Source: Alloalcanivorax mobilis
GTDB lineage: Bacteria > Pseudomonadota > Gammaproteobacteria > Pseudomonadales > Alcanivoracaceae
NCBI RefSeq assembly: GCF_002864685.1
Contig: NZ_NMQZ01000002.1
Coordinates: 1-64,000, forward strand
DNA: 64,000 bases
Direction: 5' to 3'
Part shown: one piece after another, positions 27,621 to 52,612 of the stretch
Layout: each line of letters begins with the position of its first letter
How positions within the stretch are numbered: position 1 is the first letter of the stretch
Made by a program: the position numbers and the translations under genes
Notes under the pieces: generated by a model
Seen by the model: only the letters and a program-made list of their open reading frames with translations
The model's database searches: none
Told to the model about the DNA's origin: nothing

Positions 27621-29192
27621 ATGCAAGACATCCACGCCCAGCGCCTTCTGATCCTCGACTTCGGCTCCCAATACACCCAGCTGATCGCCCGCCGCGTGCG
27701 TGAAATCGGCGTGTACTGCGAGATCCGCGCCTTCGACATCAGCGCCGAAGAGATCGCCGAGTTCGACCCCAAAGGCATCATCCTCTCCGGCGGCCCGGAA
27801 TCCGTCACCGCCGCCGAGACCCCGCGTGCCCCGCAAGCGGTGTTTGAACAGGGCGTGCCGGTGCTGGGCATCTGCTACGGCATGCAAACCATGGCCGAGC
27901 AACTGGGCGGCACCGTGGTGGCCGGTGAAAAACACGAATTCGGCTACGCCCGCGTCACCAAGGCCGAAGGCAACGGCCTGCTCGACGGCATCGTCGACCA
28001 CGAAGAGGGCGGCCAGGAATTCCTGGACGTCTGGATGAGCCACGGCGACCGCGTCGGCAGCGTCCCCGAAGGCTTTGTTGTCACCGCCACCACCGACAGC
28101 TGCCCCATCGCCGGCATGGCCAACGACGAAAAGCGCTTCTACGGCATCCAGTTCCACCCGGAAGTCACCCACACCCTGCAAGGCGGCCGCCTGCTGGAAC
28201 GCTTTATCCGCGAACTGTGCACCTGCGACGCCCTCTGGACCCCCGCCAAGATCATCGACGACGCCATCGCCACCATCAAAGAACAGGTCGGCACCGACGA
28301 AGTCATTCTGGGCCTCTCCGGTGGCGTCGACTCCTCCGTGGTCGCCGCGCTCCTCCATAAGGCGATCGGCGACCAGCTCACCTGCGTGTTCGTCGACAAC
28401 GGCCTCCTGCGCCACGGCGAAGGCGACCAGGTAATGGAAATGTTCGCCGAACACATGGGCGTGCGCGTCATCCGCGTCGACGCCGAAGACCACTTCCTCT
28501 CCCGCCTCGCCGGCGAAGCCGACCCCGAGAAGAAGCGCAAAATCATCGGCAACACCTTCATCGACATCTTCGACGCCGAAGCCTCCAAACTCAAAAACGC
28601 CCACTGGCTCGCCCAAGGCACCATCTACCCGGACGTGATCGAATCCGCCGCCTCCAAAACCGGCGGCGCCCACGTGATCAAATCCCACCACAACGTTGGC
28701 GGCCTGCCCGAGCACATGAAACTCAAGCTCGTCGAACCCCTGCGCGAGCTGTTCAAAGACGAAGTGCGCAAAATCGGCCTCGAGCTCGGCTTGCCCTACG
28801 ACATGGTCTACCGCCACCCCTTCCCCGGCCCCGGCCTGGGCGTGCGCATCCTCGGTGAAGTAAAGAAAGAATACGCCGACACCCTGCGCCTGGCGGACCA
28901 CATCTTCATCCAGGAACTGCACGCCGCCGGCCTCTACCACAAAACCAGCCAGGCCTTCGCCGTCTTCCTCCCGGTCAAATCCGTCGGCGTCGTCGGCGAC
29001 GCCCGCCGCTACGAATACGTCGTCGCCCTGCGCGCTGTCGAAACCATCGACTTCATGACCGCCCGCTGGGCGCATTTGCCGTACGAGTTTCTGGAGAAGG
29101 TGTCTAGCCGGATCATCAATGAGATTCCGGGCATCAGCCGCGTGACGTACGATATTTCGTCCAAGCCGCCGGCTACGATTGAGTGGGAGTGA
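27621..29192 (+). CDS. guaA: GMP synthase (glutamine-hydrolysing)
   Basis: It aminates XMP to GMP using glutamine. The 523-residue protein has an N-terminal class I amidotransferase domain (nucleophile C85 in GICYGMQ), a PP-loop ATP pyrophosphatase domain (LSGGVDSS, about 232-239) and the C-terminal dimerisation domain ending KPPATIEWE. The gene is intact. Codon choice changes from strongly C-ending to mixed (GAG, TTT, ATT, AAT, GAT) from about 29070 to the stop. An integrase gene follows, fitting the known use of the guaA 3' end as an island attachment site. Confidence 0.97.
29140..29192. other. Probable attachment site at the 3' end of guaA
   Basis: This is inferred from the integrase start 300 nt downstream, the abrupt shift from core to accessory genes here, and the codon-use change near the guaA end. 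The exact core cannot be fixed because the other end of the element is outside the window. Confidence 0.5.
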
Positions 29193-29491
29193 AAATACGT
29201 CTTTCAGGGGCTATCGGTAGCGATCGGAAAAGCGACGTAACTTTATGATTCTTAGGAATTTACGTCGCATTACCTATCGGTGGCTATCGGCGGCAAGCAG
29301 AAACACCTGTCGGTAAAAGCGACGGTATCGCAAATCCCTCGAAGAACGACTCTCCCAATTACCGTCATGGCAATTTTCGGCATGACGGTAAAACTACGCC
29401 CTAACTTCTTTTGGTAACAAGGAGTTAGGGACATCATCAGGGCTCCTGACCCTTGACGGTAACTAACCGCAAACACAGGAGAGTCCCTGAC
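29193..29491. promoter_or_regulatory. Structured region between guaA and int (probable recombination and control sites)
   Basis: This 299-nt region contains short direct repeats of CTATCGGT/CTATCGG (about 29210, 29273, 29284; variant TGTCGGT near 29309). It also has an inverted pair GCGACGTAA/TTACGTCGC (about 29232-29268), a perfect 11-bp inverted pair TTACCGTCATG/CATGACGGTAA (about 29359-29391) and CCCTAACT/AGTTAGGG (about 29398-29430). Such repeats fit integrase arm sites and an autoregulated int promoter. Binding roles are inferred. Confidence 0.5.
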
Positions 29492-30748
29492 ATGCTGACC
29501 GATACAGCGCTACGCAAACTCAAGCCCAAAGCTGCCACCTACAAGGTCGCTGACCGCGATGGTATGTACGTGACGGTGTCGAAAAACGGTACCGTCACCT
29601 TCCGCTATGACTACCGCCTCAACGGCCGCCGCGAAACCCTCACCCTGGGCCGCTACGGGCCGGGCGGTATTTCCTTGGCCTTGGCGCGTGAGCGCCTGTT
29701 GGATGCCCGCAAGGTGGTGGCGGAGGGCCGCTCTCCTGCCCAGGAGAAGCAGCGGGAAAAGCGCCGCCTGTCCCGTGCGAAGACCTTCGCCGAATTCACT
29801 GATGTGTGGATGGAAGCCTCCGGCATGGCTGACAGCACCAGAGCCATGCGCAAGCACATCGTCGATCGCGATATCCTGCCGGTCTTCAAGAGCCGCTTGT
29901 TGGTGGAAATTACACCCGACGATCTTCGAGCCCTTTGTCTGAAGGTCAAGAAGCGCGGGGCGCCGGCAACCGCCATCCATGTTCGCGATATCGTCAAGCA
30001 GGTATACGCGCACGCCATCATGCATGGCGAGAAGGTGGCCAACCCGGCCGATGAGGTGAGCCCTTCCTCCATCGCAACCTTCGCACCGAAGGACCGTGCG
30101 CTGTCACCCGCTGAAATCCGTCTGATGGTCCATGAGATGGAAACCATCCCCACATCGCCGACCATTCGCCTGGCGCTGCGCATGGTCCTGCTGACCTTGG
30201 TGAGGAAAGGAGAACTGCTCAAGGCGACTTGGGATGAAGTGGATTTTGAAGCGGGTGTGTGGAGTATCCCCAAGGAACGGATGAAGCGCCGTTTTCCTCA
30301 TAACGTCTACCTATCCCGGCAGGCATTGGACATCCTCGTGGCGCTGAAGACCTGCGCTGGTGGCTCCAAGTACTTACTCCCGGCCCGTTATGACGGTGAC
30401 CAGTGCATATCCATGGGCACGCTGAACCGGGTGACTCTGAAGATTTCGGAGCAAGCGCGGAAAAAGGGACTGCCGCTGGAACCCTTCACCGTTCACGATT
30501 TGCGCCGTACCGGCTCTACGCTACTCAATGAAGTTGGCTTCAATCGAGACTGGATTGAGAAGGCCTTGGCCCACGAGGATGGCCGCTCCTCACGGGCGGT
30601 GTATAACAAGGCGGAGTACGCCGAGCAGCGTCGGCACATGCTCCAGGAGTGGGCCAATATGATCGATGCCTGGGCGGAAGGGGGCAGCTACGTTCCGTCC
30701 CTGATGCCGGAAAGTATGTCGGTGCCGGCATTGAAGGCATCGGTATGA
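29492..30748 (+). CDS. int: Tyrosine-type site-specific integrase (DUF4102/P4-like)
   Basis: It catalyses integration and excision of the element. The 418-residue protein has an N-terminal DUF4102 arm-binding domain (about 5-90), a core-binding domain and the catalytic domain. The catalytic residues are R238 (LVRKGELL), H335 and R338 (VHDLRRTG), H361 (LAHEDGR) and Tyr at Y371 (VYNKAEY). ATG 29492 follows AGGAGAG at eight bases; an upstream in-frame ATG lacks a ribosome site. Reading away from guaA and lying right after it is the standard layout for guaA-inserted islands. Confidence 0.93.
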   Translation: MLTDTALRKLKPKAATYKVADRDGMYVTVSKNGTVTFRYDYRLNGRRETLTLGRYGPGGISLALARERLLDARKVVAEGRSPAQEKQREKRRLSRAKTFAEFTDVWMEASGMADSTRAMRKHIVDRDILPVFKSRLLVEITPDDLRALCLKVKKRGAPATAIHVRDIVKQVYAHAIMHGEKVANPADEVSPSSIATFAPKDRALSPAEIRLMVHEMETIPTSPTIRLALRMVLLTLVRKGELLKATWDEVDFEAGVWSIPKERMKRRFPHNVYLSRQALDILVALKTCAGGSKYLLPARYDGDQCISMGTLNRVTLKISEQARKKGLPLEPFTVHDLRRTGSTLLNEVGFNRDWIEKALAHEDGRSSRAVYNKAEYAEQRRHMLQEWANMIDAWAEGGSYVPSLMPESMSVPALKASV

Positions 30749-32276: not shown

Positions 32277-33995
32277 CTACAAGCTAAACTCTGGCCCATC
32301 GTGGGAACGGGGAGAACGTCGATGCTTGTCCATAGCCTTCTGGTATTTCTTTTCCGGCGTATCACGGTAGTGTTCGCGCAGCCTTTTTCTCAGCTCAAGG
32401 ACGTAGGGTTCGTCTTCGATGGCGACTAGGAATAAATGCTGAGGGAGATGCCCCGTCGATCCACTGCCGAGAATGCGAAATGCATCCTCAATCGTATCAA
32501 ACGGTTCGCCCAGGTCGGATGTGGGATTACACAAGCCGAAGCTAACGAAGCTGGCCCAGTCCCAACCAGATGTTCGCACATCTAGTCGCAGGTGGCGGGA
32601 TCCAGGATCCTTCTGCTCATCGAGCGCGCACTGCTGCAGGGCCTCAGCCGAACTGACGGTTGGCACTGGAGGATAAGGAGTTGAGGGAGATTCATGATAG
32701 AACAGGTAGTAGCCCGCCCTAGGCAAGCTGGAAAGTTTTGGGAGCTGGCCTTTGCCGCTCCCTAGGTTAGCAATACCCTGTTCGGCTCGTTTGGCCTGTA
32801 AAAGCACGGCTTTCCGGCACCTTAATCCACCCACGTTCAGTGAAATGATCACGCCGAGGTCGGCTCCCACACGGGCTTCTTCAGCCTTGCTCGCGAGTTG
32901 AAGGGTGCCCAGATAAGATGAGGACTTGGGATAGCCGAATTGCGGAATCCGTTTGGCGGCCCATCCTGACAGCCAAGATTCTACATAGGCACTGAACCGG
33001 CCGTTGAGCGGATCCTCATGCGCCTTGGTGCCGGAAAGGAAGTCTGCTGTCTGCTGTGCGCACTGGAACATGGACCAGTAGACAGTCCAGAGCACGTCGA
33101 TAGTCAAGTGCTGTGGTGATGTTGCCAGCAGTGGGAGCAACTGCCACTGGTCCGCCGGGTGGGAGTAGAGCGCTAGTTTCTGCGCTGGTGCGTCCCGCAT
33201 ACTGGCAATTGCAAGTTTGGCTGAAGCCTTGGCGATTTCGGTAAAGGCGCCTGTGGCGGGAATGCCAGCATGGTCGCGATAGGCCCTATCCCGAATTTTC
33301 TGGGCTTCCTGTTGCCAACGTGCGTAATCAGCTTCGGAAGGGCGAATCTGGAAAACGAGCCTCTCCAGAAGTTTGGTGGCCTCTGCTACGCGATCTGCTT
33401 GCACCAAAGCGGCAATGTTCTCGAAATTCTTGGCAAAGTCGGCGGCCAACCAACCTTCGCCGCATGCAGCGTCCATTGGCGCAGCTGCAGCCTTCTTGAA
33501 TTTGGTAAACGCTGTATGTCTTGCCTGATAGGATGCCAAGGCCCTTTTCAAGGCTGGCTGTTTGCTTCGTTCCTTTTCTACATCGCAGTTGTGTACGGCG
33601 ATATCCCTGGTTCGCCGCGCTTTAATGTCTGGTTCGTCGAAGTGGCGTTCGGCTTGCGCATACTGGTTTTGGGTATGTCGCCAGTCGTGCCATGCCCGGA
33701 ATGTTTTAACGGGAGAGAGCAGCCAGCCTAACCTACTTTTCTGCCTCACCTGGAGGAAGCGTTTTCTGCGTGCTTCGGCCTGGGTCCGTATTGGTGAGAG
33801 GGCTGCCTCGTGTTCTTGCTCCTCGCTTCGCAAGGCTAAACCCTTGATGCGAAGGATTTCCTGCTCTTTTGCCCGAATATGCTGGTCCAGCGTATCGAGG
33901 GTGCGTGATAGAAATGAGGCCAGTGTGCGGCTGGTGGCAGCAAGAGCGTGCCTGCCAGAAAGATGGTTCGGTGTCATCATTGGCTTCCTGGCCAT
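32277..33995 (-). CDS. Unknown large protein with coiled-coil N-terminus and nuclease-like motif
   Basis: The protein is about 572 residues long and not recognised as a whole. Residues 30-170 are rich in charged helices (probable coiled coil). A later segment EARVGADLGVII followed about 20 residues on by VLLQAKRAEQG gives a D...QxK pattern (D382, Q403, K405, counting from a GTG three codons upstream). This is typical of PD-(D/E)xK nucleases, as in several defence-associated families. GLPRAGYYLFYHE-type sequence follows. ATG 33995 is chosen since GGAAAG lies eight bases upstream. Its place in the int-radC gap is a common cargo spot. A defence role is inference. Confidence 0.6.
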   Translation of the reverse strand: MARKPMMTPNHLSGRHALAATSRTLASFLSRTLDTLDQHIRAKEQEILRIKGLALRSEEQEHEAALSPIRTQAEARRKRFLQVRQKSRLGWLLSPVKTFRAWHDWRHTQNQYAQAERHFDEPDIKARRTRDIAVHNCDVEKERSKQPALKRALASYQARHTAFTKFKKAAAAPMDAACGEGWLAADFAKNFENIAALVQADRVAEATKLLERLVFQIRPSEADYARWQQEAQKIRDRAYRDHAGIPATGAFTEIAKASAKLAIASMRDAPAQKLALYSHPADQWQLLPLLATSPQHLTIDVLWTVYWSMFQCAQQTADFLSGTKAHEDPLNGRFSAYVESWLSGWAAKRIPQFGYPKSSSYLGTLQLASKAEEARVGADLGVIISLNVGGLRCRKAVLLQAKRAEQGIANLGSGKGQLPKLSSLPRAGYYLFYHESPSTPYPPVPTVSSAEALQQCALDEQKDPGSRHLRLDVRTSGWDWASFVSFGLCNPTSDLGEPFDTIEDAFRILGSGSTGHLPQHLFLVAIEDEPYVLELRKRLREHYRDTPEKKYQKAMDKHRRSPRSHDGPEFSL

Positions 33996-34004
33996 ATAGT
34001 TCAC

Positions 34005-34494: not shown

Positions 34495-35004
34495 ATGACG
34501 CAACTGTCCTTTTCCTCGTTCGATTCCTCTCTTCTGGTACGTGACGCGCAGGGGCGCTATATGCCGGCGTCGGTGGACCAGATTCTTGACGCCGCGCGCC
34601 AGGTTATCGACCAGAAAATACAGCGGGGGATGTCCTTTACCTCACCGGCTCTCGTCAAAGAGTACCTATGTGCCAAGCTGGCTGGTTTCGAGCATGAAGT
34701 CTTTGCGGTACTGTTTCTCGATTCGCAGCATCGCCTGATTGAATACAGCGAGATGTTCCGGGGCACCATCGACAGTGCGTCGGTATATCCGCGAGAAGTG
34801 GTCAAGGAAGCTCTGCGGCTCAATGCGGCGGCGGTGATCTTCTCTCATAATCATCCCAGTGGGAATCCTGAACCGAGTCGTGCCGATGAGGCCATCACCA
34901 AGCGCCTCAAAGAGTCACTCGCGCTGGTAGACGTGCGTACATTGGATCACGTCATCATCGCTGGTAGCGATACGACGTCCTTTGCTGAGCGTGGCCTGAT
35001 CTGA
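34495..35004 (+). CDS. radC: RadC-like JAB domain protein
   Basis: RadC-family proteins have an MPN/JAMM fold of uncertain function and are frequent on mobile elements. The 169-residue protein lacks the N-terminal HhH part of chromosomal RadC. It carries the metal-site motif H118-N-H120-P-S-G ... D131 (SHNHPSGNPEPSRAD) and an upstream conserved Glu in EHEVFAVLFLD. It is a usual backbone gene of Tn4371-like ICEs. GGAGC precedes ATG 34495. Confidence 0.9.
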   Translation: MTQLSFSSFDSSLLVRDAQGRYMPASVDQILDAARQVIDQKIQRGMSFTSPALVKEYLCAKLAGFEHEVFAVLFLDSQHRLIEYSEMFRGTIDSASVYPREVVKEALRLNAAAVIFSHNHPSGNPEPSRADEAITKRLKESLALVDVRTLDHVIIAGSDTTSFAERGLI

Positions 35005-35037
35005 TCCTGGGGGCTTCGGCCCCTTTTTTCTTAACGG

Positions 35038-36624
35038 CTATTCGGAGGGTGGTCTAGGCTGCTCATCTTCTAATAGATCAGCACTCTCAGTCTCTTTGTC
35101 ATTTTCAGACTTGGTTGTCTGCGTTGAGTTGTCTGTGGCCTCAGTGGGCGCTCCGGATTGTTGTGTAACCTCTTTAATAGCGAGCGTTGATTGAGTGCCT
35201 GTTGCACTGGGTGGAGGAGTCTGAGAGCTTTTTATGTTTGTTTCGAGCGGCTTTTCTACAGAGTGAAAAAGCGGGATAAGAACAAAGGAAGCCAAAAATA
35301 TAATTGAAGCATAAATCATGCCTTTATTAGTGAATTTGGCGGTCTTCTTGTATAGCCGGACGGCATCCAATACAGGGCGCAATGCCAACTCCCTGTAATC
35401 GGATCGGGTTAATGCAGTATGAACATTTTTGTGCCAACGCCTCATGTTTCGCAGCTCATTCACTAATGACTTCGAGCTGACATGGCGTTGAAGAGTTATG
35501 CTGGCCCAAGTAATTGCGAGAACAACGAGGCAAAAAATGATTCCCACGGCTGGCCACGTACTTTTTTGTGATGTTAATAATGTCAGCCGAACACCTAATC
35601 CGGTTGCTAATGCCGCAAGACCAACGACAAAGCCAGTGGATAGCCGATGAACTCGCTCGACGATACGTGAAACATCTTCTCCGACGGCTTTCCGAAGATC
35701 AGCCATTGCCTTCACCGTCTCTGCTGACTTGGATCTTACATATGCACGATGATCAAGCCGCGCTCCATCAAGCGCTTCTTGCAGTGCTTCAGGTAATACG
35801 GTTAGCCAGTCGGTATTGGTGTCTGAATCCCTCACAATTGCGGAAAGACGTCGTACAAGAACTTCATGGCGTGCTTCGGTATCTTGCTTTACAAGTAGCC
35901 ACTCAGATGCTTGGCAGACTTTCTCATAAGCATTGTTATCCTGGCATTCATTCCCAAGTACAAAGGTACGCTTCCTTGCCCCATTAAGAGATATTTTTGT
36001 CTTATCTTCTTCCCATACATCTGAAACAAAAAGTGTGGCTAGCTTCCGAGTTGCCTTGTTTTTCCAGACCTCCCACGGTTCGCCACTCCCTTGGTCGCCC
36101 AATAGTATCCAGCGATATGGGTCAGCAGGAACAGTGGTACCAGTTAGATCTCGTACGATGCCTTTTCTCGGGTCAATCGCATCTGGGCTCGGGTCTAAAT
36201 AAGTCAAACCAGACAAAGGGATACCGTCCCAAGGCAAAACGGAAAAACCTCGGGTTTTGAATTCAGTAAATGAGCCCAGTACCAACAGCTCTCTGGATAG
36301 AGTTAACGACTGATCATCAAGAGCTGATGAAAACCCTGCCAACGTAGCAAAGAAAACCCTGCCGCCTACCGGCTTCTTTACGACAAGGGTAACATCCTCG
36401 TTCGTGATAAAATCTATAGAAATCTCTGAAAACTCACCATCGCGAATTGAAACCGACCACTCGTCAGACATCTCTTTCAAGAAGTCGTCATACGCCAGCT
36501 TAAACGAATCCGATTGTTCTGGAGAAACTCGGCCGGAAATATCGAGTTGCCCAATGGTTTCTCGAATATTTGCATGATTTCCTAACCCGTCAATCAGGGA
36601 TTCTAGGCATTTTTTCGAGTTCAT
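35038..36624 (-). CDS. Unknown membrane protein paired with an NdpA-like protein
   Basis: The 528-residue protein was not recognised. The first 300 or so residues look soluble and mixed alpha/beta. Residues about 300-330 are helical, followed by a hydrophobic pair (about 331-350 and 357-378), a cytoplasmic-type helical loop and a third hydrophobic helix (about 436-455). The tail (about 460-528) is low-complexity Ser/Thr/Glu/Pro. Its ATG lies 35 bases inside the end of the upstream gene, so the two are co-expressed and coupled. Base composition is lower in GC than the backbone genes, as expected for imported cargo. A membrane effector partnered with a nucleoid-binding protein is inferred. Confidence 0.6.
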   Translation of the reverse strand: MNSKKCLESLIDGLGNHANIRETIGQLDISGRVSPEQSDSFKLAYDDFLKEMSDEWSVSIRDGEFSEISIDFITNEDVTLVVKKPVGGRVFFATLAGFSSALDDQSLTLSRELLVLGSFTEFKTRGFSVLPWDGIPLSGLTYLDPSPDAIDPRKGIVRDLTGTTVPADPYRWILLGDQGSGEPWEVWKNKATRKLATLFVSDVWEEDKTKISLNGARKRTFVLGNECQDNNAYEKVCQASEWLLVKQDTEARHEVLVRRLSAIVRDSDTNTDWLTVLPEALQEALDGARLDHRAYVRSKSAETVKAMADLRKAVGEDVSRIVERVHRLSTGFVVGLAALATGLGVRLTLLTSQKSTWPAVGIIFCLVVLAITWASITLQRHVSSKSLVNELRNMRRWHKNVHTALTRSDYRELALRPVLDAVRLYKKTAKFTNKGMIYASIIFLASFVLIPLFHSVEKPLETNIKSSQTPPPSATGTQSTLAIKEVTQQSGAPTEATDNSTQTTKSENDKETESADLLEDEQPRPPSE

Positions 36625-37720
36625 CGTTCCGTTCCAGACCGGTGGACCGTATCGTTATTTCAACGCCGCCATTGTCTTCATCTTTTATTTTTACGTTTTT
36701 GTTCTCTTCATGTCCTGCACTGAATAAAAGGGTAATTCCTTCGTTCGTGACTACACGACGGTATTCGGCTGCAGGGGGGGTGGCTCCCTCGAACTTGAAT
36801 GCTTCTGTACTTATATTTTTGTTGGCGAGTTTGCTCTTAAAAGTTTTAAGGATTTTTGCTTCAGGGGAAACTCCCTGCAATACAGTGCTCAAAAACTCTT
36901 CAGGCTTTTCAAAGTCAAAACCATCAAGTCTTGAGATCGCTGTCCGAACAAAGCGTTTAGGGGCTTTAGCAACTTCGGCAGGAACTTCATGTTTGTTTGC
37001 TTTTATAGATTCGACAGCGGCATCTTCAAGACGTTTAGTCAGTTCGATAGGCTCAAACGTACGTTTAATATCCAAGAAGTTGGCAAAATGTTGGGTTGCA
37101 TCTCGGTAGCGGCCGGATGAATGGTCAATGACAACGACTGATGATTGAGGCGTCTTATGCTTGGTGGATTTTCTATAATCTTGGAATCGAATGACCGCAG
37201 ATTTCTGCATAGCTTTGCGATCTTTGGTAAATGTTTCCACAAGCGTCTGGAGATCAGGGACAGGGTTTCCATCGGCGTCTAAAACTGGTGTACCGCTCTC
37301 GTCTTTAATGTAGGAGTAAGAGACTACTTGCTGGTGCTCATACTTAATAACTGCGACCAGTTGAACGTTTCCTGTCGTTTTAAGTGCAAAGAGCATTAAT
37401 ACGCCTGGAGCAAGACGCTTGTCCTGTTTGACTTTGTCTTTGAACCGGTCTGCGAGATCATGCGAGACCTGAATAAAATCATCGTCCCCGTCAGAGGTTG
37501 GTAGAGCTCGATAGAGAAGTTCGGGAACACCTGCACCTGGAAGAAATTCGTACGCGGCCCCACGAAGGGTTTCTTTGACGCGTTCAACAAAAAAATCGAC
37601 GCATTGCGGCGGCTTCACTTCTGCTAGAAAGGTGGGTGATTCCGACGCGGGATCGACAACGTGGAAAATCATTCGTTCAATGGTTAGATTTTCAACCTCG
37701 GTCTCGCTAAGAAAGCTCAT
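36590..37720 (-). CDS. Nucleoid-associated protein, NdpA/YejK-like
   Basis: The 376-residue protein resembles the NdpA (37-kDa nucleoid-associated) family, with an opening like VENLTIERMIFHVVDP, the conserved FFVERVKETLRGAAYEF, and a mid-protein region of YSYIKDESG type. Length is slightly above the usual 335. The chromosomal YejK binds DNA and is not essential. Here it is the first gene of an overlapping pair with a membrane protein, in a cargo slot between radC and DUF736. Known two-gene defence systems such as Kiwa also pair a DNA-associated protein with a membrane protein. The resemblance is only of layout. Confidence 0.68.
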   Translation of the reverse strand: MSFLSETEVENLTIERMIFHVVDPASESPTFLAEVKPPQCVDFFVERVKETLRGAAYEFLPGAGVPELLYRALPTSDGDDDFIQVSHDLADRFKDKVKQDKRLAPGVLMLFALKTTGNVQLVAVIKYEHQQVVSYSYIKDESGTPVLDADGNPVPDLQTLVETFTKDRKAMQKSAVIRFQDYRKSTKHKTPQSSVVVIDHSSGRYRDATQHFANFLDIKRTFEPIELTKRLEDAAVESIKANKHEVPAEVAKAPKRFVRTAISRLDGFDFEKPEEFLSTVLQGVSPEAKILKTFKSKLANKNISTEAFKFEGATPPAAEYRRVVTNEGITLLFSAGHEENKNVKIKDEDNGGVEITIRSTGLERNDELEKMPRIPD

Positions 37721-38790: not shown

Positions 38791-39105
38791 ATGGCCAACA
38801 TCGGCACTTTTACCTCAGAGACAGACGGCTACACCGGCACACTCCGCACCCTGACGCTCAACTTCAAGGTAAAGCTGGTTCCCAACGACAAGGGCGACAG
38901 CGAGAACGCTCCCAACTTTCGCCTCCAGGCCGCTGGGCACGACATCGGTGCGGCGTGGAAGAAAACCAGTGAGGCCGGGAGAGACTACCTGTCCGTCACC
39001 GCCGACGCCCCTTCCTTCCCGGCTCCGGTTTACGCTCGTCTGATCGAGGGCGAGGACGGCACGTATGACCTGATCTGGTCACGCAGCACGCCCCAGGCGG
39101 CGTAA
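38791..39105 (+). CDS. DUF736 family protein
   Basis: The 104-residue protein begins [20 protein letters not shown], the DUF736 hallmark, with the SENAPNFRL block in the middle. Function is unknown, but the family is a constant part of Tn4371-like and related conjugative elements. AAAGGAG lies eight bases before the ATG. Confidence 0.92.
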
Positions 39106-39243: not shown

Positions 39244-39969
39244 TTACGAAATATCAATTTCCAGAACGCGAACCAATATTCGTTTATCCGGGAACCCATA
39301 CTTTCCAGCCGAATAGTTGGTATTAACCGGAACGGCTGATCTCAGCGACAACTCTGCGCCAGCGGAAAATATAACTTCGTTTTCATGGCCTAGATTCGTA
39401 CCTTTCCGCCTGTAGGCGAAAACCTTGGTCTTCGGATTGGTCGCTCTCAGTACGAACAAGTCAATTCGGTCGGCGTCATATCCCTTGCCTTTATGGTCTG
39501 CGTTACGTAAGGCAACCTGAGGGCAGAATGAGGTGGAAAGCGGACGATCTGTTAGCAAACGATTGTCATTGGTGGGCCATAGCCCTGCGTGGAAAAGACA
39601 TTGCCCTTCACTGAGCACATGGCCGACCGCTTCTATCTCTGCGGAAACCTGCTCGAAATTGCAATGTGGATAGCGCTTCTGATACCGCGAAAGTCCGTCT
39701 GGTGTCTTGGATGGCATCGCTTGCCGCCAAGACCTGTACGCGACACTGTTGTCCAAGGCATCGTCAATGAAGTTGCCAAGCCTACTATCGGCGCCGACTT
39801 TTGCCATGTGAGTGGCAGCATCGTAGGCGTTAGAGATAGATGCTTTCAATCTGATTGGGATACGAAGATGGGGATTTCCTGCTGCCAGCATCTCATCAAA
39901 CGTAGGATCTCTTGTTTCCCAAATCTCATAGGTGGGAGAGAACGTATCTACAAGAGGAAGTTTCACCAA
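39244..39969 (-). CDS. ADP-ribosyltransferase-like protein next to Gabija
   Basis: The 241-residue protein carries the three landmark motifs of an ADP-ribosyltransferase fold in the right order. These are CLFHAGLW (H127, at the first NAD-binding strand), DRPLSTSF with S145-T146-S147, and ENEVIF with E196 and E198 (E-x-E). The H/R, STS and ExE spacing fits enzymes that modify proteins or nucleic acids with NAD. It lies 136 nt downstream of gajB on the same strand. It could be an added effector of the defence locus, a toxin, or an inactive relative. The call rests on motif reading alone. Confidence 0.55.
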   Translation of the reverse strand: MVKLPLVDTFSPTYEIWETRDPTFDEMLAAGNPHLRIPIRLKASISNAYDAATHMAKVGADSRLGNFIDDALDNSVAYRSWRQAMPSKTPDGLSRYQKRYPHCNFEQVSAEIEAVGHVLSEGQCLFHAGLWPTNDNRLLTDRPLSTSFCPQVALRNADHKGKGYDADRIDLFVLRATNPKTKVFAYRRKGTNLGHENEVIFSAGAELSLRSAVPVNTNYSAGKYGFPDKRILVRVLEIDIS

Positions 39970-40105: not shown

Positions 40106-41776
40106 CTACCGATCAGGGTTGAGAAAAGGCATGGCATAGCCTAAAAACTCCGAGTGCGGCGTTCTGTTTTCCTTCCACCTGCGAGGATTGGATGATGGGG
40201 TGTCTCGGCGATCACTAACGGTCAGCATCAGCCGTTGCTTAGCCCGGGAAATGCCGACAAAAAAAGCACAACGTTCCGCATCCTCTTCCCCCCAGAAAGA
40301 CTGATCTTCAACAGCGAGAATGACAACCGTATCGAATTCGAGTCCCTTGCTCTTGTGGATAGTCAAAATGCGCACAGCTTGATCATCGGAAAAACGCTCC
40401 AGTGCTTTCGGTAAATTGGGTTCCGACTTTAATAGTTCATCTACGCGGGTCTTGGTGTCGTTGACGACTTGCACTAGTCTCGCTTTTGACTCGTAATCAT
40501 GGGAAAGTGCAGACAGAGTATCGATACCCACTTTTCTTAGAAAGGCGCGAACAAAATCCCACCAGTCCGCGAATGGTTCACCTAATAGTGCGCTCTGTAC
40601 GGCACTTTTCCTCTGACCAACAATAAAGTTCTGGAAATCTCTTCGCACGCTGGACTGTACATCGTCGTCGGCGAAAGGGATGAGTTGTGTCATCAATCGA
40701 ATCCAGGCTTTGGGTTCTCGCTGCCCATAGAGAGTGGACAGATAATCGACGATAAGCCTCGCGGCTGGTTCGACAGAGATGTCTTGGAGTTGTTGCTCAT
40801 TGCGAAAGGGGATGCGCCGCTGCTCCAACGCTTGGATTAGGTGGTCGCCATAGAGGTCAGGTTGCCGGACAACTAGGATCGCGATTTCTGAAGGTGGAAG
40901 TTGCTCATGGTTGATCCATGTGTCGATTGAGTCCGCCAGATGTTCGGCTTCCTCTTGACTATTTGGAAATTGCCGCGCGAATATCTGGCCCTCCTCACCG
41001 GCGAGTTGTTCATCAGGCATAACGGAGGTGGAGTCCATCACCTTAATGATCTCGTTCTGCATACGCAGCAGACGAGGCTTAGAGCGGAAGTTGCGGTACA
41101 TATTAAGTGGTTCAGCAACAAAGTCCTCTGCGAAGGTTTGGAATATGCCATCAAGCGCACCTGCCCATCCCATGATCTTTTGCTTGGTGTCGCCGACTGC
41201 CGTCAGACGGATAGCAGTGTTCTGGAACGCAAGCTTCACCAGTGCGTATTGCTGGTCGGTGCAATCCTGGAATTCGTCCAGAAAGACATCGCTGTAGGTC
41301 TGACGAACAGCGTTGCGGGCCGCAACGGATGTGCTGAGGATCTGTATGGCCAGGGGCACAAGGTCACTGAATTCGATCTGTCGTCGTGTCACTCTCCGGT
41401 CGCCGATTTGGTAGTCGACATCGAGGGCGTCCCGTCCGGTCAGCACTGGCCGGAAACGATCAATAATCCTCTTGGCGAAAGCATGGAAGGTGTAACTGTC
41501 GAAACGTGCTGCCAAGTCGAAACCACAACGGCGTTGCACGCGCTCCTTCAGGTTTTTGCAGGCATCAACCTTGAATGAGATGGCCAGTATTCGTTTCGGG
41601 TAACGGCAGGTTCCTGTGCGCAACAGAAAATCGGCGCGCTGTGCAAGCATTTCCGTTTTGCCTGCCCCCGGCCCGGCTGTCAGTGCAAGACAGCACTCTG
41701 TCTCCCGTGCGGCACGCAAGGCATTGGGTTCAAGCATCAGCCCGTCCGCCGGTTGCCAATCGCCTGCGGCGATCAT
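40106..41776 (-). CDS. gajB: Gabija protein GajB (UvrD-like helicase)
   Basis: A superfamily 1A helicase that senses nucleic acid or nucleotide state in the Gabija anti-phage system. The 556-residue protein has Walker A GPGAGKT (35-41), motif II DEFQD (167-171), motif III-like VGDTKQKIMGWAGA (about 194-207) and the UvrD motif V/VI region with LTIHKSKGLEFDTVVI (about 460) and ISRAKQRLMLTVSD. The ATG overlaps the gajA stop (ATGA). Its pairing with a class 2 OLD nuclease is the diagnostic Gabija arrangement. Confidence 0.88.
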   Translation of the reverse strand: MIAAGDWQPADGLMLEPNALRAARETECCLALTAGPGAGKTEMLAQRADFLLRTGTCRYPKRILAISFKVDACKNLKERVQRRCGFDLAARFDSYTFHAFAKRIIDRFRPVLTGRDALDVDYQIGDRRVTRRQIEFSDLVPLAIQILSTSVAARNAVRQTYSDVFLDEFQDCTDQQYALVKLAFQNTAIRLTAVGDTKQKIMGWAGALDGIFQTFAEDFVAEPLNMYRNFRSKPRLLRMQNEIIKVMDSTSVMPDEQLAGEEGQIFARQFPNSQEEAEHLADSIDTWINHEQLPPSEIAILVVRQPDLYGDHLIQALEQRRIPFRNEQQLQDISVEPAARLIVDYLSTLYGQREPKAWIRLMTQLIPFADDDVQSSVRRDFQNFIVGQRKSAVQSALLGEPFADWWDFVRAFLRKVGIDTLSALSHDYESKARLVQVVNDTKTRVDELLKSEPNLPKALERFSDDQAVRILTIHKSKGLEFDTVVILAVEDQSFWGEEDAERCAFFVGISRAKQRLMLTVSDRRDTPSSNPRRWKENRTPHSEFLGYAMPFLNPDR

Positions 41777-43677
41777 TCGGGTAGTTCCTCCAGCTTGGCG
41801 ATCACCGCGTCCGCCAGTCTCGCCAGTGATTCAGGCATGTCGTCGAGAAGTTCTGCGTCACTCAACTGGGCCAGTGCATCGATATGGGCCGCTGGCTTGC
41901 TGCCTAGCTTAAAACGCTTGTGATAGGTCTTGAAAAGTGCGCGCTCATCGTCATCGTACTGTGCCGCGTCGAAATGGCTATCGCCGAGAACGGCTTTGAC
42001 CGTGGCTTCACTCGGTGGATTAGATTCGACACCGTACTCATCGGGAAACGAGAGTAACATCGCGAAGTCGAGGTCCAGTGGATAGGAGAAAAAAACGTCT
42101 CGATTCTCCAGTTTTTCAAGGTAGTTGAGATAGCTACGAACCTTTTCTTTCGCATCGTTCCAAGCGGGAATTCCATGGTCCGACGGGAGCTTTTTGGCAG
42201 GAGCATATTCGCCTAACTGATCGTTGACGTACTTGATCCGACCCCAGCCCCCTTGATGCCGGGCGACATCCAAATCGAGCAGAGTGAGATAGGGGATTTC
42301 AAGAGCCGAGAGCAGGCGCCAGAAGTGATTGACATGGCGACCGCCCAGAGGCGCCACGGTTACAGCAGACTCGTCGACTGGAATACCTTTGGCACGCAGA
42401 ATGCGGGGCAGAACGATTTCCTCGCTATCACCTTCTCCAAGAATAACCAGCCGGGAGAAATAAATTTCGGGATATGCCTGCACGGCTTCGCGGACAAACT
42501 TGTGGGCTTCATTGGTTCTTTTCGGTAAGCGAATGCGCGTGGTCTTGGTAGTTCGCTCGCCGGTGAGCCGCAAGTAGCGTATGTGCCTAGGATTGACTCG
42601 CCGAAGCATGGAAGGTGCATGGGTGGCAATTAGGGCTTGGGCATCTTCGTTACTCGTCATAGTGACCAGAGCATTCACGATTCTTCCCAAATAGTGAGGT
42701 GAGAGACTGTTCTCAGGCTCTTCAAGGGCGACGATCGTAAACACCGGGGGACGCAACTTATCCGGGTCGAAGGTATCATCGTCACCGGCAAGGACCGCAC
42801 GCCCGATTGATTGTGCCGAAAGCACCAGTGACAGATAGAGCATGGACTTCTGGCCATCACTTAGCCTGGAGAAATCGACCAATTCTTCGTCATGCCCAGG
42901 AGAAAAGGAAACGGACAGGTGCCGTAATAAGGCTTCGATCTCGGATGCGGCGAAGGTGATTTGGGGGTCGGCGAAGAAGCTACCTTTGTGCAAGGTGCTC
43001 CAGGTTGTCTGCAGACTCTCGCTCAGAGTTGCGATTGATGGATTGCCCGCGAGGCTTTCACTGATTTTGTCTGTGAAGCCTTTGATTTCTTCTCGCTCAT
43101 TCTCCCAGTTTACGGCTCTTAGCATACGGCCAAGCAGAGCATTGGCGCTGTAGGCGATGTGATCAGCGGGATCTCGTCGTGCAGGTAGGTAATGAACCTG
43201 CACATGGTTGCGTTCCGCTCGCGTAACCTGTGCTGTGGTGAGGGGAGAGCCATCGGCATCGAGATCCAATACATGAACCAGGGTTTCTTCGATGTCACCA
43301 TTCACGCCCATCGTGGCGTCCAGGCGATATCGGACACGGGGTGGACCATCGGCGGAGTCCAGCCGCATATGGCCGAAATGAGGAGCTATCGTTGCGACAT
43401 CATCGTCATCTTCAAGTTCGGGAAAGATAAAGTCGGCTTCGATCCAAAGCTGCCGTTCTTCAGGAACTTCCTCTTCATCATAGGGAACGTGGAAGTCTGA
43501 CCGCCGGATGCGCCGTAGCGAGGGATCGAAGGCAAACAAGCGGCACAACGCCTGAAGTGCTGCGGTCTTGCCTGAACCGTTCGGGCCGATCAGATAGGTG
43601 ATGTCGTTGAGGGGCAGTTCAGTGGGCTCCGGCCCAAACGACTGAAAGCTGAATAGCCGGATGCTCTGTAGTTTCAT
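41773..43677 (-). CDS. gajA: Gabija protein GajA (OLD-family ATPase/TOPRIM nuclease)
   Basis: The effector nuclease of Gabija, which nicks or cleaves DNA when nucleotide pools fall. The 634-residue protein has an ABC-type ATPase with Walker A GPNGSGKT (31-38), signature LSDGQK (272-277), Walker B VFTIVALEEPENS (312-324), and a C-terminal TOPRIM domain with E415 (ILGEGDSEE) and the D468/D470 pair (LLDLDVARHQGG). It is a class 2 OLD protein, slightly longer than the reference GajA. The promoter is expected in the 100-nt gap after the HTH gene. Confidence 0.9.
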   Translation of the reverse strand: MKLQSIRLFSFQSFGPEPTELPLNDITYLIGPNGSGKTAALQALCRLFAFDPSLRRIRRSDFHVPYDEEEVPEERQLWIEADFIFPELEDDDDVATIAPHFGHMRLDSADGPPRVRYRLDATMGVNGDIEETLVHVLDLDADGSPLTTAQVTRAERNHVQVHYLPARRDPADHIAYSANALLGRMLRAVNWENEREEIKGFTDKISESLAGNPSIATLSESLQTTWSTLHKGSFFADPQITFAASEIEALLRHLSVSFSPGHDEELVDFSRLSDGQKSMLYLSLVLSAQSIGRAVLAGDDDTFDPDKLRPPVFTIVALEEPENSLSPHYLGRIVNALVTMTSNEDAQALIATHAPSMLRRVNPRHIRYLRLTGERTTKTTRIRLPKRTNEAHKFVREAVQAYPEIYFSRLVILGEGDSEEIVLPRILRAKGIPVDESAVTVAPLGGRHVNHFWRLLSALEIPYLTLLDLDVARHQGGWGRIKYVNDQLGEYAPAKKLPSDHGIPAWNDAKEKVRSYLNYLEKLENRDVFFSYPLDLDFAMLLSFPDEYGVESNPPSEATVKAVLGDSHFDAAQYDDDERALFKTYHKRFKLGSKPAAHIDALAQLSDAELLDDMPESLARLADAVIAKLEELPE

Positions 43678-49792: not shown

Positions 49793-51766
49793 ATGAGCGA
49801 CCACCGCGATGATGATTTCCGTATCCGCCCCAGCGCCCCCAAGCATCGGGGGCAGGGCTTCGTTTCCAAGGTGCTCAAGCAGACAGTGAAAGCCAGTGGC
49901 GGCAAATCCTCGTCACGTCGGCAGACATCGGCGGGCAGCACCGGTCAACGTCCCGGCTCACGTCTGGGGCGCGGCCATACCGCGGCGCGCTTCACGGGCA
50001 CATCACTGACGCCATTCTCGCGTCGCGTCACCATCAAAACCCTGCTGGTTAATCAGCGCCGTGCCAGCCCGCAGTCGCTGGCGAAACACCTGCGCTACAT
50101 CGAACGCGACGGTGCGGGGCGTTATGGTGAGCAAGGTCGGGCCTACGGGCCGCAAATCGACGAGGACGATCTGGATGCCTTCAAGGAGCGCTGTCAGGAC
50201 GATCGGCATCATTTCCGCTTCATCCTCTCGCCCGAGGACGGGGCCGAGTTGGACGATCTGCGCACCTACACACGTCATCTGATGAACCGTATGGAAGCCG
50301 ATCTGGGCACGCAGTTGGATTGGGTGGCGGTGGATCACTGGAACACAGACAACCCGCACACGCACTTGGTGGTGCGTGGACGTGACGACACTGGCAAAGA
50401 CCTCATCATCGCCGGTGACTACATCGCCCATGGCGTCCGCCATCGCGCTGCCGAACTGGTGACGGAATGGCTGGGACGGCGCACGGAACTGGAGATTCAA
50501 CAGACCTTGCGGCGTGAGGTGGAACAGGAGCGGTGGACGAGTTTGGATCGCACGCTGCAACGTGAAGCTGGCGAGGACGGCCAGTTGCAGATCAAGCGCT
50601 TCAACGAACCTCGGCTGCAACGTCAGCGCCTGCTGCTGATCGGCCGCCTGCAACGCTTGCAGCACTTGGGCCTGGCCGACGAGACGCAGCCCGGCACCTG
50701 GGCCGTCCATGCGGACGCGGAGAAGACCTTGCGCGCCCTGGGCGAGCGTGGAGACATCATCCGCACCATGCAGCGCGCCATGAGCGGCCAGCCACGCGAG
50801 CTGGCGGTGTTCGAGCCGAGCGACGACGGCCGTGCCGTCATCGGCCGAGTGGCTGCAAAGGGACTGGCCGACGAACTGCGCGACCGGGGCTATCTGGTCA
50901 TCGACGGGGTGGACGGCAAGGCCCACTACGTCGCCTTGAATGCCCGTGACGAGTTGACGAACTATCCCACCGGCGCGGTGGTGGAGGTGCGCAGTTCAGC
51001 CGAGGTGCGGGCGGCCGACCGCAACATTATCGCGCTGGCGAGCGATGGCCTGTATCGCACCGACCATCACCTGGCGATTGAGCAAGGTCGGGCCATGCCT
51101 GACCGCGACCCGCAGGAAGTCGTTGCGGGCCATGTTCGCCGGCTGGAAGCCCTGCGCCGGGCTGGCATCGTGGAGCGCGTGGCCGATGGCTTATGGAAGG
51201 TGCCGGACGATCTGGTCGAGCGTGGCCGCCAGTACGACGCACAGCGGCTGGGTGGCGTGGCGGTAAAACTGAAATCTCACCTGCCGATTGAACGTCAGGC
51301 GCGAGTGATTGGTGCGACCTGGCTGGATCAGCAGTTGATCGGCGGGGGGCGTGGGCTGAGCGACCTGGGCTTTGGCGGCGACACCAAACGAGCCTTACAG
51401 CAGCGCGCCGACTTCCTCGAAGAACAGGGGCTGGCCCAGCGGCGCAGGCAGCGGGTAACCCTCGCCCGGAACCTGCTGGGGACGCTGCGCGACCGGGAAC
51501 TGACGCAGGCCGCCAAGGATATTGCCGCCGAAACCGGATTGGCGCACAGACCTGTCACGGACGGGCAGCGTGTGGCCGGTATATACCGGCGCTCCGTCAT
51601 GCTCGCTAGCGGACGCTACGCCATGCTCGATGACGGTATGGGGTTCAGCCTAGTGCCGTGGCGGCCGATGATCGAACAGCGACTAGGTCAGCAACTTACA
51701 GCGGTGGTGCGTGGTGATTTTGTATCATGGGACTTGGGCCGAGCACGAGGACCGGCAATCAGCTGA
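49793..51766 (+). CDS. rlxS: VirD2-type relaxase with DUF3363
   Basis: It nicks oriT and pilots the single strand during conjugation. The 657-residue protein has the HUH histidine motif DHWNTDNPHTHLVV (about 181-194) and a C-terminal DUF3363 region running to VRGDFVSWDLGR. A catalytic tyrosine is expected in the first 120 residues (the AKHLRYIERDG segment is typical of this subgroup). ATG 49793 is chosen by family similarity. The gene is complete. Confidence 0.9.
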   Translation: MSDHRDDDFRIRPSAPKHRGQGFVSKVLKQTVKASGGKSSSRRQTSAGSTGQRPGSRLGRGHTAARFTGTSLTPFSRRVTIKTLLVNQRRASPQSLAKHLRYIERDGAGRYGEQGRAYGPQIDEDDLDAFKERCQDDRHHFRFILSPEDGAELDDLRTYTRHLMNRMEADLGTQLDWVAVDHWNTDNPHTHLVVRGRDDTGKDLIIAGDYIAHGVRHRAAELVTEWLGRRTELEIQQTLRREVEQERWTSLDRTLQREAGEDGQLQIKRFNEPRLQRQRLLLIGRLQRLQHLGLADETQPGTWAVHADAEKTLRALGERGDIIRTMQRAMSGQPRELAVFEPSDDGRAVIGRVAAKGLADELRDRGYLVIDGVDGKAHYVALNARDELTNYPTGAVVEVRSSAEVRAADRNIIALASDGLYRTDHHLAIEQGRAMPDRDPQEVVAGHVRRLEALRRAGIVERVADGLWKVPDDLVERGRQYDAQRLGGVAVKLKSHLPIERQARVIGATWLDQQLIGGGRGLSDLGFGGDTKRALQQRADFLEEQGLAQRRRQRVTLARNLLGTLRDRELTQAAKDIAAETGLAHRPVTDGQRVAGIYRRSVMLASGRYAMLDDGMGFSLVPWRPMIEQRLGQQLTAVVRGDFVSWDLGRARGPAIS

Positions 51767-51811
51767 TGCCGATAGAACGTTAATGCTCAAGGTTAAGGGG
51801 GCTGTTCCCGG

Positions 51812-52150
51812 ACTTCCTCTGAAGGCGCGGAGAAACGTAGCAACGGCATCTTTGGCCCAGTGATCGTGCTGCGCGGCAAACGCTGGAATATGGGGATGCA
51901 TCAAACACTGAATTCACCCCAGCACTTACCATATCACTTCAAAGGCGCGGCGATGGAGTCAAATCCAAGGCCTGCAAGGTCCAGTTCACCTTCATATACA
52001 GCTCTTTCTAGTCTTTCCGCCACGATACGTTTGATCTTGGCAGAGCCGGCAAGGTGAAAGCGCGCAGCCTGAGCTCGGGAAACCTTGGGCTTCGGCCGCA
52101 ATCATGCGATATAGCGCCAACCCGTCAGGCGGATGGCATTGGAGGACGTT
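51812..52150 (-). pseudogene. Frameshifted remnant of a TetR-family repressor gene
   Basis: Reading the minus strand, three blocks match the intact TetR at 57498-58169. These are PPDGLALYRMI, then RFHLAGSAKIKRIVAERL, then QCLMHPHIPAFAAQHDHWAKDAV (split over two frames). Frame changes separate the blocks, and the N-terminal DNA-binding half is gone. The nucleotide match to the intact gene is obvious over about 330 bp. This is the decayed left copy of the efflux cassette regulator. Confidence 0.82.
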
Positions 52151-52312
52151 CCGATGCTAGAGCTGGCGGACATGTCGGTTACGTCTCTTTCTTCCTCTAC
52201 TGTTGTTACGGATACGGAGCATGCCAGGTCTTGTGTTTTCGTACCGGCCAGATCGGTTTTTTACCGATATTGACCACACGAGGAATTCGCCACATAATGC
52301 CATTTTTAGTAA

Positions 52313-52328
52313 CGAACCGATCGGTTCG
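52313..52328. promoter_or_regulatory. Relic TetR operator
   Basis: CGAACCGATCGGTTCG is a perfect 16-bp palindrome in the same relative place as the CCGAACCGACCGGT site before the live efflux operon at 58313-58327. It separates the tetR remnant from the remnant of an outer-membrane-factor gene. Confidence 0.6.
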
Positions 52329-52374
52329 GTTTGGTTCTGTCTGGGGTGTCGATCCCTTAAGCATTGACTAGGCG

Positions 52375-52550
52375 GTGCCAGCTAATTCTCTGTGGTGCAC
52401 ATCACATTAGCGGGAGCGTGGAGGCCTCTGGTGGTGAACGGTCGCCGCAATACCCTTGCCATATGGTGGCTTAGACCCGCATGCGCTGGTCCTGAATACC
52501 GGACTGACAACCTGCAGCTGTCAGCCTTGGAAAGCGGGATGGAAAGCATG
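52375..52550 (+). pseudogene. 5' remnant of an outer-membrane efflux factor gene
   Basis: From about 52375 the sequence follows the start of the intact efflux-factor gene at 58367. Shared stretches include CTGTGGTGCA, CCGCRATA and TGCGCT, and the lipobox-like region reads ACAGPEYR in one frame against SCALVPDV in the live gene. Similarity fades at about 52550. The reading frame is not kept. Together with 51812-52150 it shows a full tetR-operator-omf junction in decay. Confidence 0.65.
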
Positions 52551-52612
52551 GCAAGCATAACGAAGCACAGGAGCTTCAATACCCATGAAGACGCAGGTGA
52601 CGGAGTAACGTC

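Follow-up and report, generated by a model that had tools for sequence, protein, structure and literature searches.

A 64,000-nucleotide stretch of the Alloalcanivorax mobilis genome (contig NZ_NMQZ01000002.1, positions 1 to 64,000; hereafter the window), drawn from a 4.1-Mb genome in 92 contigs, contains two overlapping genes which probably constitute a little-known defence system against viruses. The product of the upstream gene, a divergent member of the NA37 (YejK/NdpA) family, is termed P1, and that of the downstream gene, a membrane protein, is termed P2. The two genes are paired almost without exception, overlap, descend jointly, are mobile and sparsely distributed and occur in the neighbourhood of defence genes. 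The antiviral assignment is based on their co-inheritance in many bacteria and their location among antiviral genes. More specifically, and with moderate confidence, we favour the view that P1 and P2 form a mobile anti-phage system of two genes, with abortive infection at the inner membrane as its mode of action. The pair is a concrete, clonable candidate, and the wider pattern of NA37 proteins coupled to effectors, described below, can be tested too.

The conservation of P1 and P2 as a unit is documented by several data sets. A search with a P2 profile yielded 42 loci in genome contigs and four in viral contigs (IMG/VR), and a P1 gene recognised by the P1 profile lies directly upstream of P2 in 41 and four of them, respectively (45/46); at the sole miss (L012; loci and genomes carry our own labels, L and G) the P2 frame begins at the contig edge. 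The genes overlap by 4–38 nucleotides in 43 of the 45 measurable pairs, 35 nucleotides being found in 20 pairs, 4 in ten and 14 in seven, with start codons picked by script. Gaps were recorded at L033 (77 nucleotides, where an earlier start codon would yield a 4-nucleotide overlap) and at L043 (181 nucleotides, with a shortened P1). Among 398 genomes of the Pseudomonadota, the phylum of the window as judged from named relatives, the P2 profile matches four, and the P1 profile (E ≤ 1e-8) matches the identical four, the window's own genome included. In one of them, G190, P1 was detected by the P1 profile only, and two stops were counted in the P2 match, yet a frame of 451 residues is open there. 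Each of 25 carrier genomes searched contains one P1 match and no more. On plasmids, tblastn returned nine records for P1 and nine for P2, seven of them common to both. The P1 and P2 distances correlate with r = 0.959, the best of 5,000 permutations reaching 0.353 (30 pairs, near-copies included), evidence of joint descent that does not distinguish physical contact from plain linkage. The preliminary description of the window had named joint conservation as a check of its defence interpretation, and the pair is indeed conserved together. At the Sinorhizobium symbiotic plasmid locus (L005 9010-11433) P2 is broken by transposase-like frames, as judged by eye, and P1 is open. In Pseudomonas-type loci a gene for a 209-residue protein recurs some 0.33 kb upstream of P1, on the other strand (L028 7919-8548; also L030, L031, L038, L043, L113 and L115); its product matches no Pfam family at E ≤ 0.01.

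The distribution of the pair is both sparse (4/398 genomes) and scattered over mobile DNA, including plasmids and the IMG/VR viral contigs. Plasmid pKAZ5 carries the same pair adjoining radC, and homologous pairs are found on Rhizobium and Methylocystis plasmids, in Pantoea beside an integrase gene and on Pseudomonas contigs. The E. coli genomes searched gave no DNA match to the window pair or the Pantoea pair, nor to the NA37-membrane protein pair of L155 (see below).

The surroundings of the pair are enriched in known defence genes, relative to a control not matched for mobile DNA. We compared 212 neighbouring proteins (at least 200 residues, at most 6 kb away) from 30 of the 53 loci L001–L053 with the PADLOC models at E ≤ 1e-15. 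The 23 loci left out (L001, L002, L004–L016, L021, L032, L033, L035, L043 and L047–L049) were near-copies, contig stubs or, in some cases, simply unused; L041 and L042 were both kept although they share a neighbour. One set of 107 neighbours (16 loci) matched 171 models and a second of 105 (14 loci) matched 85, compared to four models for 106 control proteins. The controls were drawn from 13 of 17 regions that had been fixed in advance on the contigs of the carriers, away from the pair. Since PADLOC models are redundant, the model counts overstate the number of systems. The enrichment envisaged in the preliminary description is thereby observed. Nine of 20 neighbours scanned singly matched PADLOC, namely as PDC-S68 and QatA (L018), HamB (L024), SngA (L039) and a NERD-UvrD protein (L037), and, as partial or generic matches, a type IIG enzyme (L025), HEC-06/Orf5 (L029), a UvrD helicase (L041) and IetA (L040). 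Two neighbour proteins matched PtuA models and two PtuB models. On the Methylocystis plasmid (L003), annotation assigns genes near the pair to anti-phage PLD and DUF1156 proteins. The island that carries P1-P2 in the window also harbours a Gabija system (Table 1), and both pKAZ5 (L001) and Alcanivorax sp. 24 (L008) have genes that cluster with its GajA and GajB.

This company also bears on a second explanation, according to which P1-P2 is chiefly a toxin–antitoxin module for island stability, with P2 as membrane toxin, P1 as antitoxin and phage defence perhaps as a side effect. The near-constant pairing, the overlapping genes with the putative antitoxin gene first and the residence on mobile elements would fit such a module, as would the fact that NA37 proteins also pair with RelA/SpoT-domain proteins, small alarmone synthetases being known toxins. 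However, P1 and P2 are both large for a classical toxin–antitoxin pair, and a pure maintenance module has no need of neighbouring defence genes. We consider this explanation unlikely; it shades into the anti-phage system, which is the best explanation.

P1 passes the Pfam cut-off for NA37 (PF04245; E 4.1e-9, 36.7 bits versus 24.6) with a match covering profile positions 1-290 of 325, in line with the NdpA-like nature proposed in the preliminary description, and 29 of 31 P1 family members match NA37 at E ≤ 0.1. A sequence search of the PDB with the P1 profile gave a weak match to YejK (9be2, E 0.024). YejK and NdpA were recognised long ago as nucleoid-associated proteins, with no clear purpose. 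P2 reaches the cut-off of no Pfam family (best 8xMP, E 0.0078, 16.5 bits versus 30) and of no NCBIfam family, and its profile retrieved no credible match from the PDB. The soluble N-terminal part and three C-terminal helices described earlier were recovered by hydropathy, and 16 P2 proteins, that of the window included, scanned at one threshold contain three segments in eight, two in seven and one in a single case. In 30 of 30 aligned pairs Lys305, Asp309, Leu310, Arg311 and Lys312 of P2 are invariant, and Asp309–Lys312 is the sole run of adjacent invariant residues in the protein. This run lies just before the first transmembrane helix (TM1) and would, together with Lys305, be a natural relay.

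On this basis a first mechanistic scenario can be proposed. P1 would serve as a cytosolic sensor or adaptor, built on the YejK/NdpA scaffold, which monitors DNA or the condition of the nucleoid and keeps P2 restrained. P2 would reside in the inner membrane, its N-terminal part of about 330 residues and its TM2-TM3 loop both being cytosolic; the charge distribution, assessed by eye, suggests that these segments may face the side where P1 would be. Once P1 encounters phage DNA in replication or a nucleoid that is collapsing, the conserved stretch beside TM1 might relay the signal, upon which P2 would assemble, disturb the membrane and halt growth. Phage protection, the assignment of sensing to one of the two proteins and the nature of the membrane step are what we infer, the sensing of DNA or nucleoid by P1 following from its NA37 family membership. 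The almost constant pairing of a nucleoid-type protein with a membrane protein here, and in relatives with RelA/SpoT and SLATT proteins, is best read as a sensor or restraint tied to an effector that stops growth. According to passages of PMC8565334, NdpA2 of the integrative and conjugative element (ICE) PAPI-1 alone does not shift promoter DNA; the input of P1 could therefore be a nucleoid protein instead of DNA. The assignment of P2 as membrane effector is read from its architecture, since its profile resembles neither SLATT, 8xMP nor other NA37 partners.

Several observations weigh against an anti-phage function. Neither P1 nor P2 matched any of the 5,027 models of PADLOC-DB 2.0.0 at E ≤ 1, and P2 has no profile similarity to SLATT, 8xMP or other NA37 partners, the probability being at most 2%, or 3% in one run. 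At the threshold used, the helix count falls below three in eight of the 16 scanned P2 proteins. The nearest relative agrees for P1 and P2 in 19 of 30 pairs. Eleven of the 20 singly scanned neighbours matched nothing at the thresholds used, strong or partial defence matches were placed in just 9 of the 30 loci, and the control regions consisted of ordinary DNA from the same contigs, with no matching for mobile elements. Finally, the NdpA2 encoded by an ICE instead influences conjugation by way of MvaT, as reported in PMC8565334.

In the window, P1-P2 sits on an integrated element which begins with a tyrosine integrase gene (Table 1). Its slot between radC and DUF736 genes is as given in the preliminary description, and so are the outer coordinates of the pair, which are exact, the overlap of the two genes and their deviating base composition. 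The guanine-plus-cytosine content is 0.461 in the pair and 0.604 in the window as a whole; among 614 sliding windows of 2,683 bp, 2 are as low as the pair. Just ahead of the integrase lies what we take to be guaA, and genes presumably encoding ParA, replication and relaxase-like proteins (by eye) extend towards 51.8 kb. No exact attachment-site repeats of at least 12 nucleotides were found between 29101-29460 and 51601-52700, and promoter and terminator scans gave no excess over shuffled sequence. Two further minus-strand genes were noted: 32277-34004, between an AlpA-like gene and radC, might be further cargo, its 575-residue product exceeding no Pfam or NCBIfam cut-off and matching PADLOC weakly (E 0.016); 39244-39969, between DUF736 and Gabija, encodes 241 residues, for which none of Pfam, NCBIfam and PADLOC gave a family.

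Table 1. Positions of the gene pair, of its surroundings in the window and of other NA37 loci
Feature	Position	Strand	Remarks
P1	36590-37720	minus	376 residues; divergent NA37 (YejK/NdpA) protein; proposed sensor/adaptor
P2	35038-36624	minus	528 residues; three membrane helices near the C-terminus, preceded by a soluble part; proposed membrane effector
Overlap of P1 end and P2 start	36590-36624	minus	35 nucleotides
NA37 match in P1, residues 18-328	36737-37669	minus	Pfam
Most conserved stretch of P2, residues 300-312, SAETVKAMADLRK	35689-35727	minus	just ahead of TM1
P2 TM1, residues 332-350	35575-35631	minus	hydropathy
P2 TM2, residues 360-378	35491-35547	minus	hydropathy
P2 TM3, residues 435-453	35266-35322	minus	hydropathy
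radC	34495-35004		flank of P2; Pfam E 3e-46
Terminator-like hairpin	35009-35024	plus	closes radC towards P2; consensus match
DUF736 gene	38791-39105		flank of P1; Pfam E 8.7e-34
Tyrosine integrase	29453-30748	plus	left end of island; Pfam PF00589 E 3.4e-21
Gabija GajB	40106-41776	minus	PADLOC 902 bits
Gabija GajA	41773-43677	minus	PADLOC 1118 bits
SLATT/DUF4231-NA37-RelA/SpoT or GTP pyrophosphokinase operons	L174 8854-11374; L175 8785-11335; L176 8145-10719; L167 5518-8081		
NA37 with membrane partner of 407-425 residues	L110 4997-7395; L111 2282-4678; L112 4426-6846; L170 4900-7278; L172 4861-7257		

The location between two genes of the element itself would also suit a housekeeping role, in which an NdpA2-like regulator and a membrane protein tune ICE conjugation, partition or silencing. 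A precedent is PAPI-1, where NdpA2 together with TprA raises ICE transfer (passages of PMC8565334). Homologous pairs, however, recur in the unrelated contexts listed above, and two high-scoring, mobile-looking NA37 copies (L164, 284 bits; L165, 329 bits) have no abutting membrane partner; we regard a housekeeping role as quite improbable.

P1-P2 appears to be one case of a wider pattern. In the 398 genomes we defined a low-scoring NA37 set, above the family cut-off and below 190 bits, the line being drawn after the list had been seen. A membrane-anchored partner or a RelA/SpoT gene abuts NA37 at 10 of the 11 usable loci: the P1-P2 pairs of G000, G178 and G286; L154, L155, L157 (NA37 cut by the contig end), L159 and L161, with partners containing predicted C-terminal membrane helices; and L158 and L160, with RelA/SpoT genes. 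NA37 at L166 (155 bits) has no partner. L162 and a 69-residue piece in G023, both broken or fragmentary, and L163 (below cut-off) were left out of the count. High-scoring loci were tested automatically, the low-scoring ones having been read by hand: in 36 of 46, no frame that abuts NA37 on the same strand has a predicted membrane helix, and 10 do have such a frame, which in seven is one of about 116 residues in Pseudomonas-order loci; a membrane neighbour alone is therefore not specific. At L154 (1708-5408) a SMODS (CD-NTase) gene and a four-helix membrane gene, resembling a cyclic oligonucleotide-based anti-phage signalling system, adjoin the NA37-membrane protein pair, and at L160 a two-helix gene (by eye) lies on the other strand.

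Searching 19 relatives of G286 added NA37 genes with a membrane partner of 418-420 residues (L110, L111 and L112), a broken P1-P2 copy (L113) and, at L114, a SLATT_4-like protein, NA37 and, beyond a transposon, a RelA/SpoT-like gene. The larger group of 407-425-residue partners has predicted C-terminal membrane helices and is unrelated to P2 by profile; the L112 pair adjoins genes resembling Tn7-type transposition genes (by eye). The RelA_SpoT family was confirmed in all four proteins tested (L158, L160, L169 and L174), and SLATT_4 scored slightly under its cut-off in L114 and L176. By annotation, the order SLATT/DUF4231, nucleoid-associated protein and RelA/SpoT or GTP pyrophosphokinase recurs on one Klebsiella plasmid and in 3 of 5,426 E. 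coli genomes, where the operons belong to integrase-bearing islands at tRNA-Thr; these three-gene operons are likely a separate, rare NA37 type. On Ochrobactrum and Streptomyces plasmids a RelA/SpoT gene comes after NA37, and no SLATT gene is annotated alongside. In Neisseria (L173 5001-7047, a record filed as a 2.17-Mb plasmid and evidently a chromosome) the RelA/SpoT-like gene behind NA37, recognised by eye, is split across two frames.

In an NA37 tree, calculated without the L109 and L150 rows, the 18 P1 rows form a separate group (support 100/99; 100% of 200 bootstrap trees) and do not group with chromosomal YejK. The RelA/SpoT-linked proteins are likewise a supported group (99/93), the other membrane-linked ones scatter, and a housekeeping group needs one change, with weak support (60/75). 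The proposed anti-phage function gains support by analogy from other divergent NA37 genes, which adjoin RelA/SpoT genes, often accompanied by a SLATT/DUF4231 gene, or genes for membrane-anchored partners. With slightly less than even confidence we suggest that the NA37/YejK scaffold serves generally as an immune sensor whose divergent forms are coupled to several kinds of effector (P2, P2-unrelated proteins with a soluble N-terminus and C-terminal helices, and RelA/SpoT synthetases, often with SLATT), P1-P2 being one branch of a "nucleoid-guard" class that would fire when a phage disturbs the nucleoid or DNA. If divergent NA37 proteins do restrain membrane or alarmone effectors, bacterial immunity would treat nucleoid disturbance as a guarded signal.

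Among established systems, Kiwa consists of one membrane protein and one DNA-linked cytosolic protein, a two-part layout shared by P1-P2. In line with the preliminary description, which saw Kiwa families in neither protein, no KwaA or KwaB model of PADLOC matches P1 or P2. KwaA was rejected for P2, which also lacks a Pfam match above cut-off, and KwaB for P1, where hhalign against six KwaB homologues gave a probability of 1.0%; the KwaB family PF16162 has no match in the window's genome. Despite the similar layout, Kiwa or a variant of it is thus a most improbable identification. P2 was likewise rejected by sequence as an 8xMP protein (hhalign 0.2%, with Pfam bits as above), 6 of 31 P2 family members matching 8xMP at E ≤ 0.1 (best 0.0029), as a SLATT protein (0.1-0.2%) and as a homologue of other NA37 partners (0.2-3%). 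As profile comparison detects no homology, the resemblance to these proteins is one of layout. With the two-helix SLATT/DUF4231 effectors P2 shares, by eye, a cytosolic helix, two membrane helices and a charged loop, and differs by its large N-terminal part and third helix.

Compared to the housekeeping YejK/NdpA protein (NA37, PF04245), P1 has a near whole-length NA37 match, but scores far below the roughly 190-380 bits of high-scoring copies, forms its own clade and is paired with P2. NdpA2 of PAPI-1 is, like P1, an NA37 protein of a mobile element; it acts via MvaT, with TprA, on conjugation genes, and the relevant passages of PMC8565334 mention no membrane partner, whereas P1 has P2. A search of the literature outside preprints and most subscription journals found no paper on the P1-P2 family or on NA37-effector pairing. 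The possibility of a new system raised in the preliminary description has to be qualified: the NA37/YejK domain is not new to defence, because a YejK-domain unit already protected E. coli. The defence interpretation as a whole is partly supported. That unit was among the 42 of 94 cloned E. coli units reported by DefensePredictor to protect E. coli MG1655 in plaque assays, its partner, sequence and system number not being named in the text sections of PMC13092281. It probably represents another NA37 type than P1, since the E. coli genomes searched contain no DNA match to P1-P2. It nevertheless shares the YejK/NA37 domain with P1 and offers a precedent that would be in keeping with an anti-phage function of the pair; if nucleoid disturbance is the guarded signal, the trigger of this published E. 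coli unit becomes directly testable.

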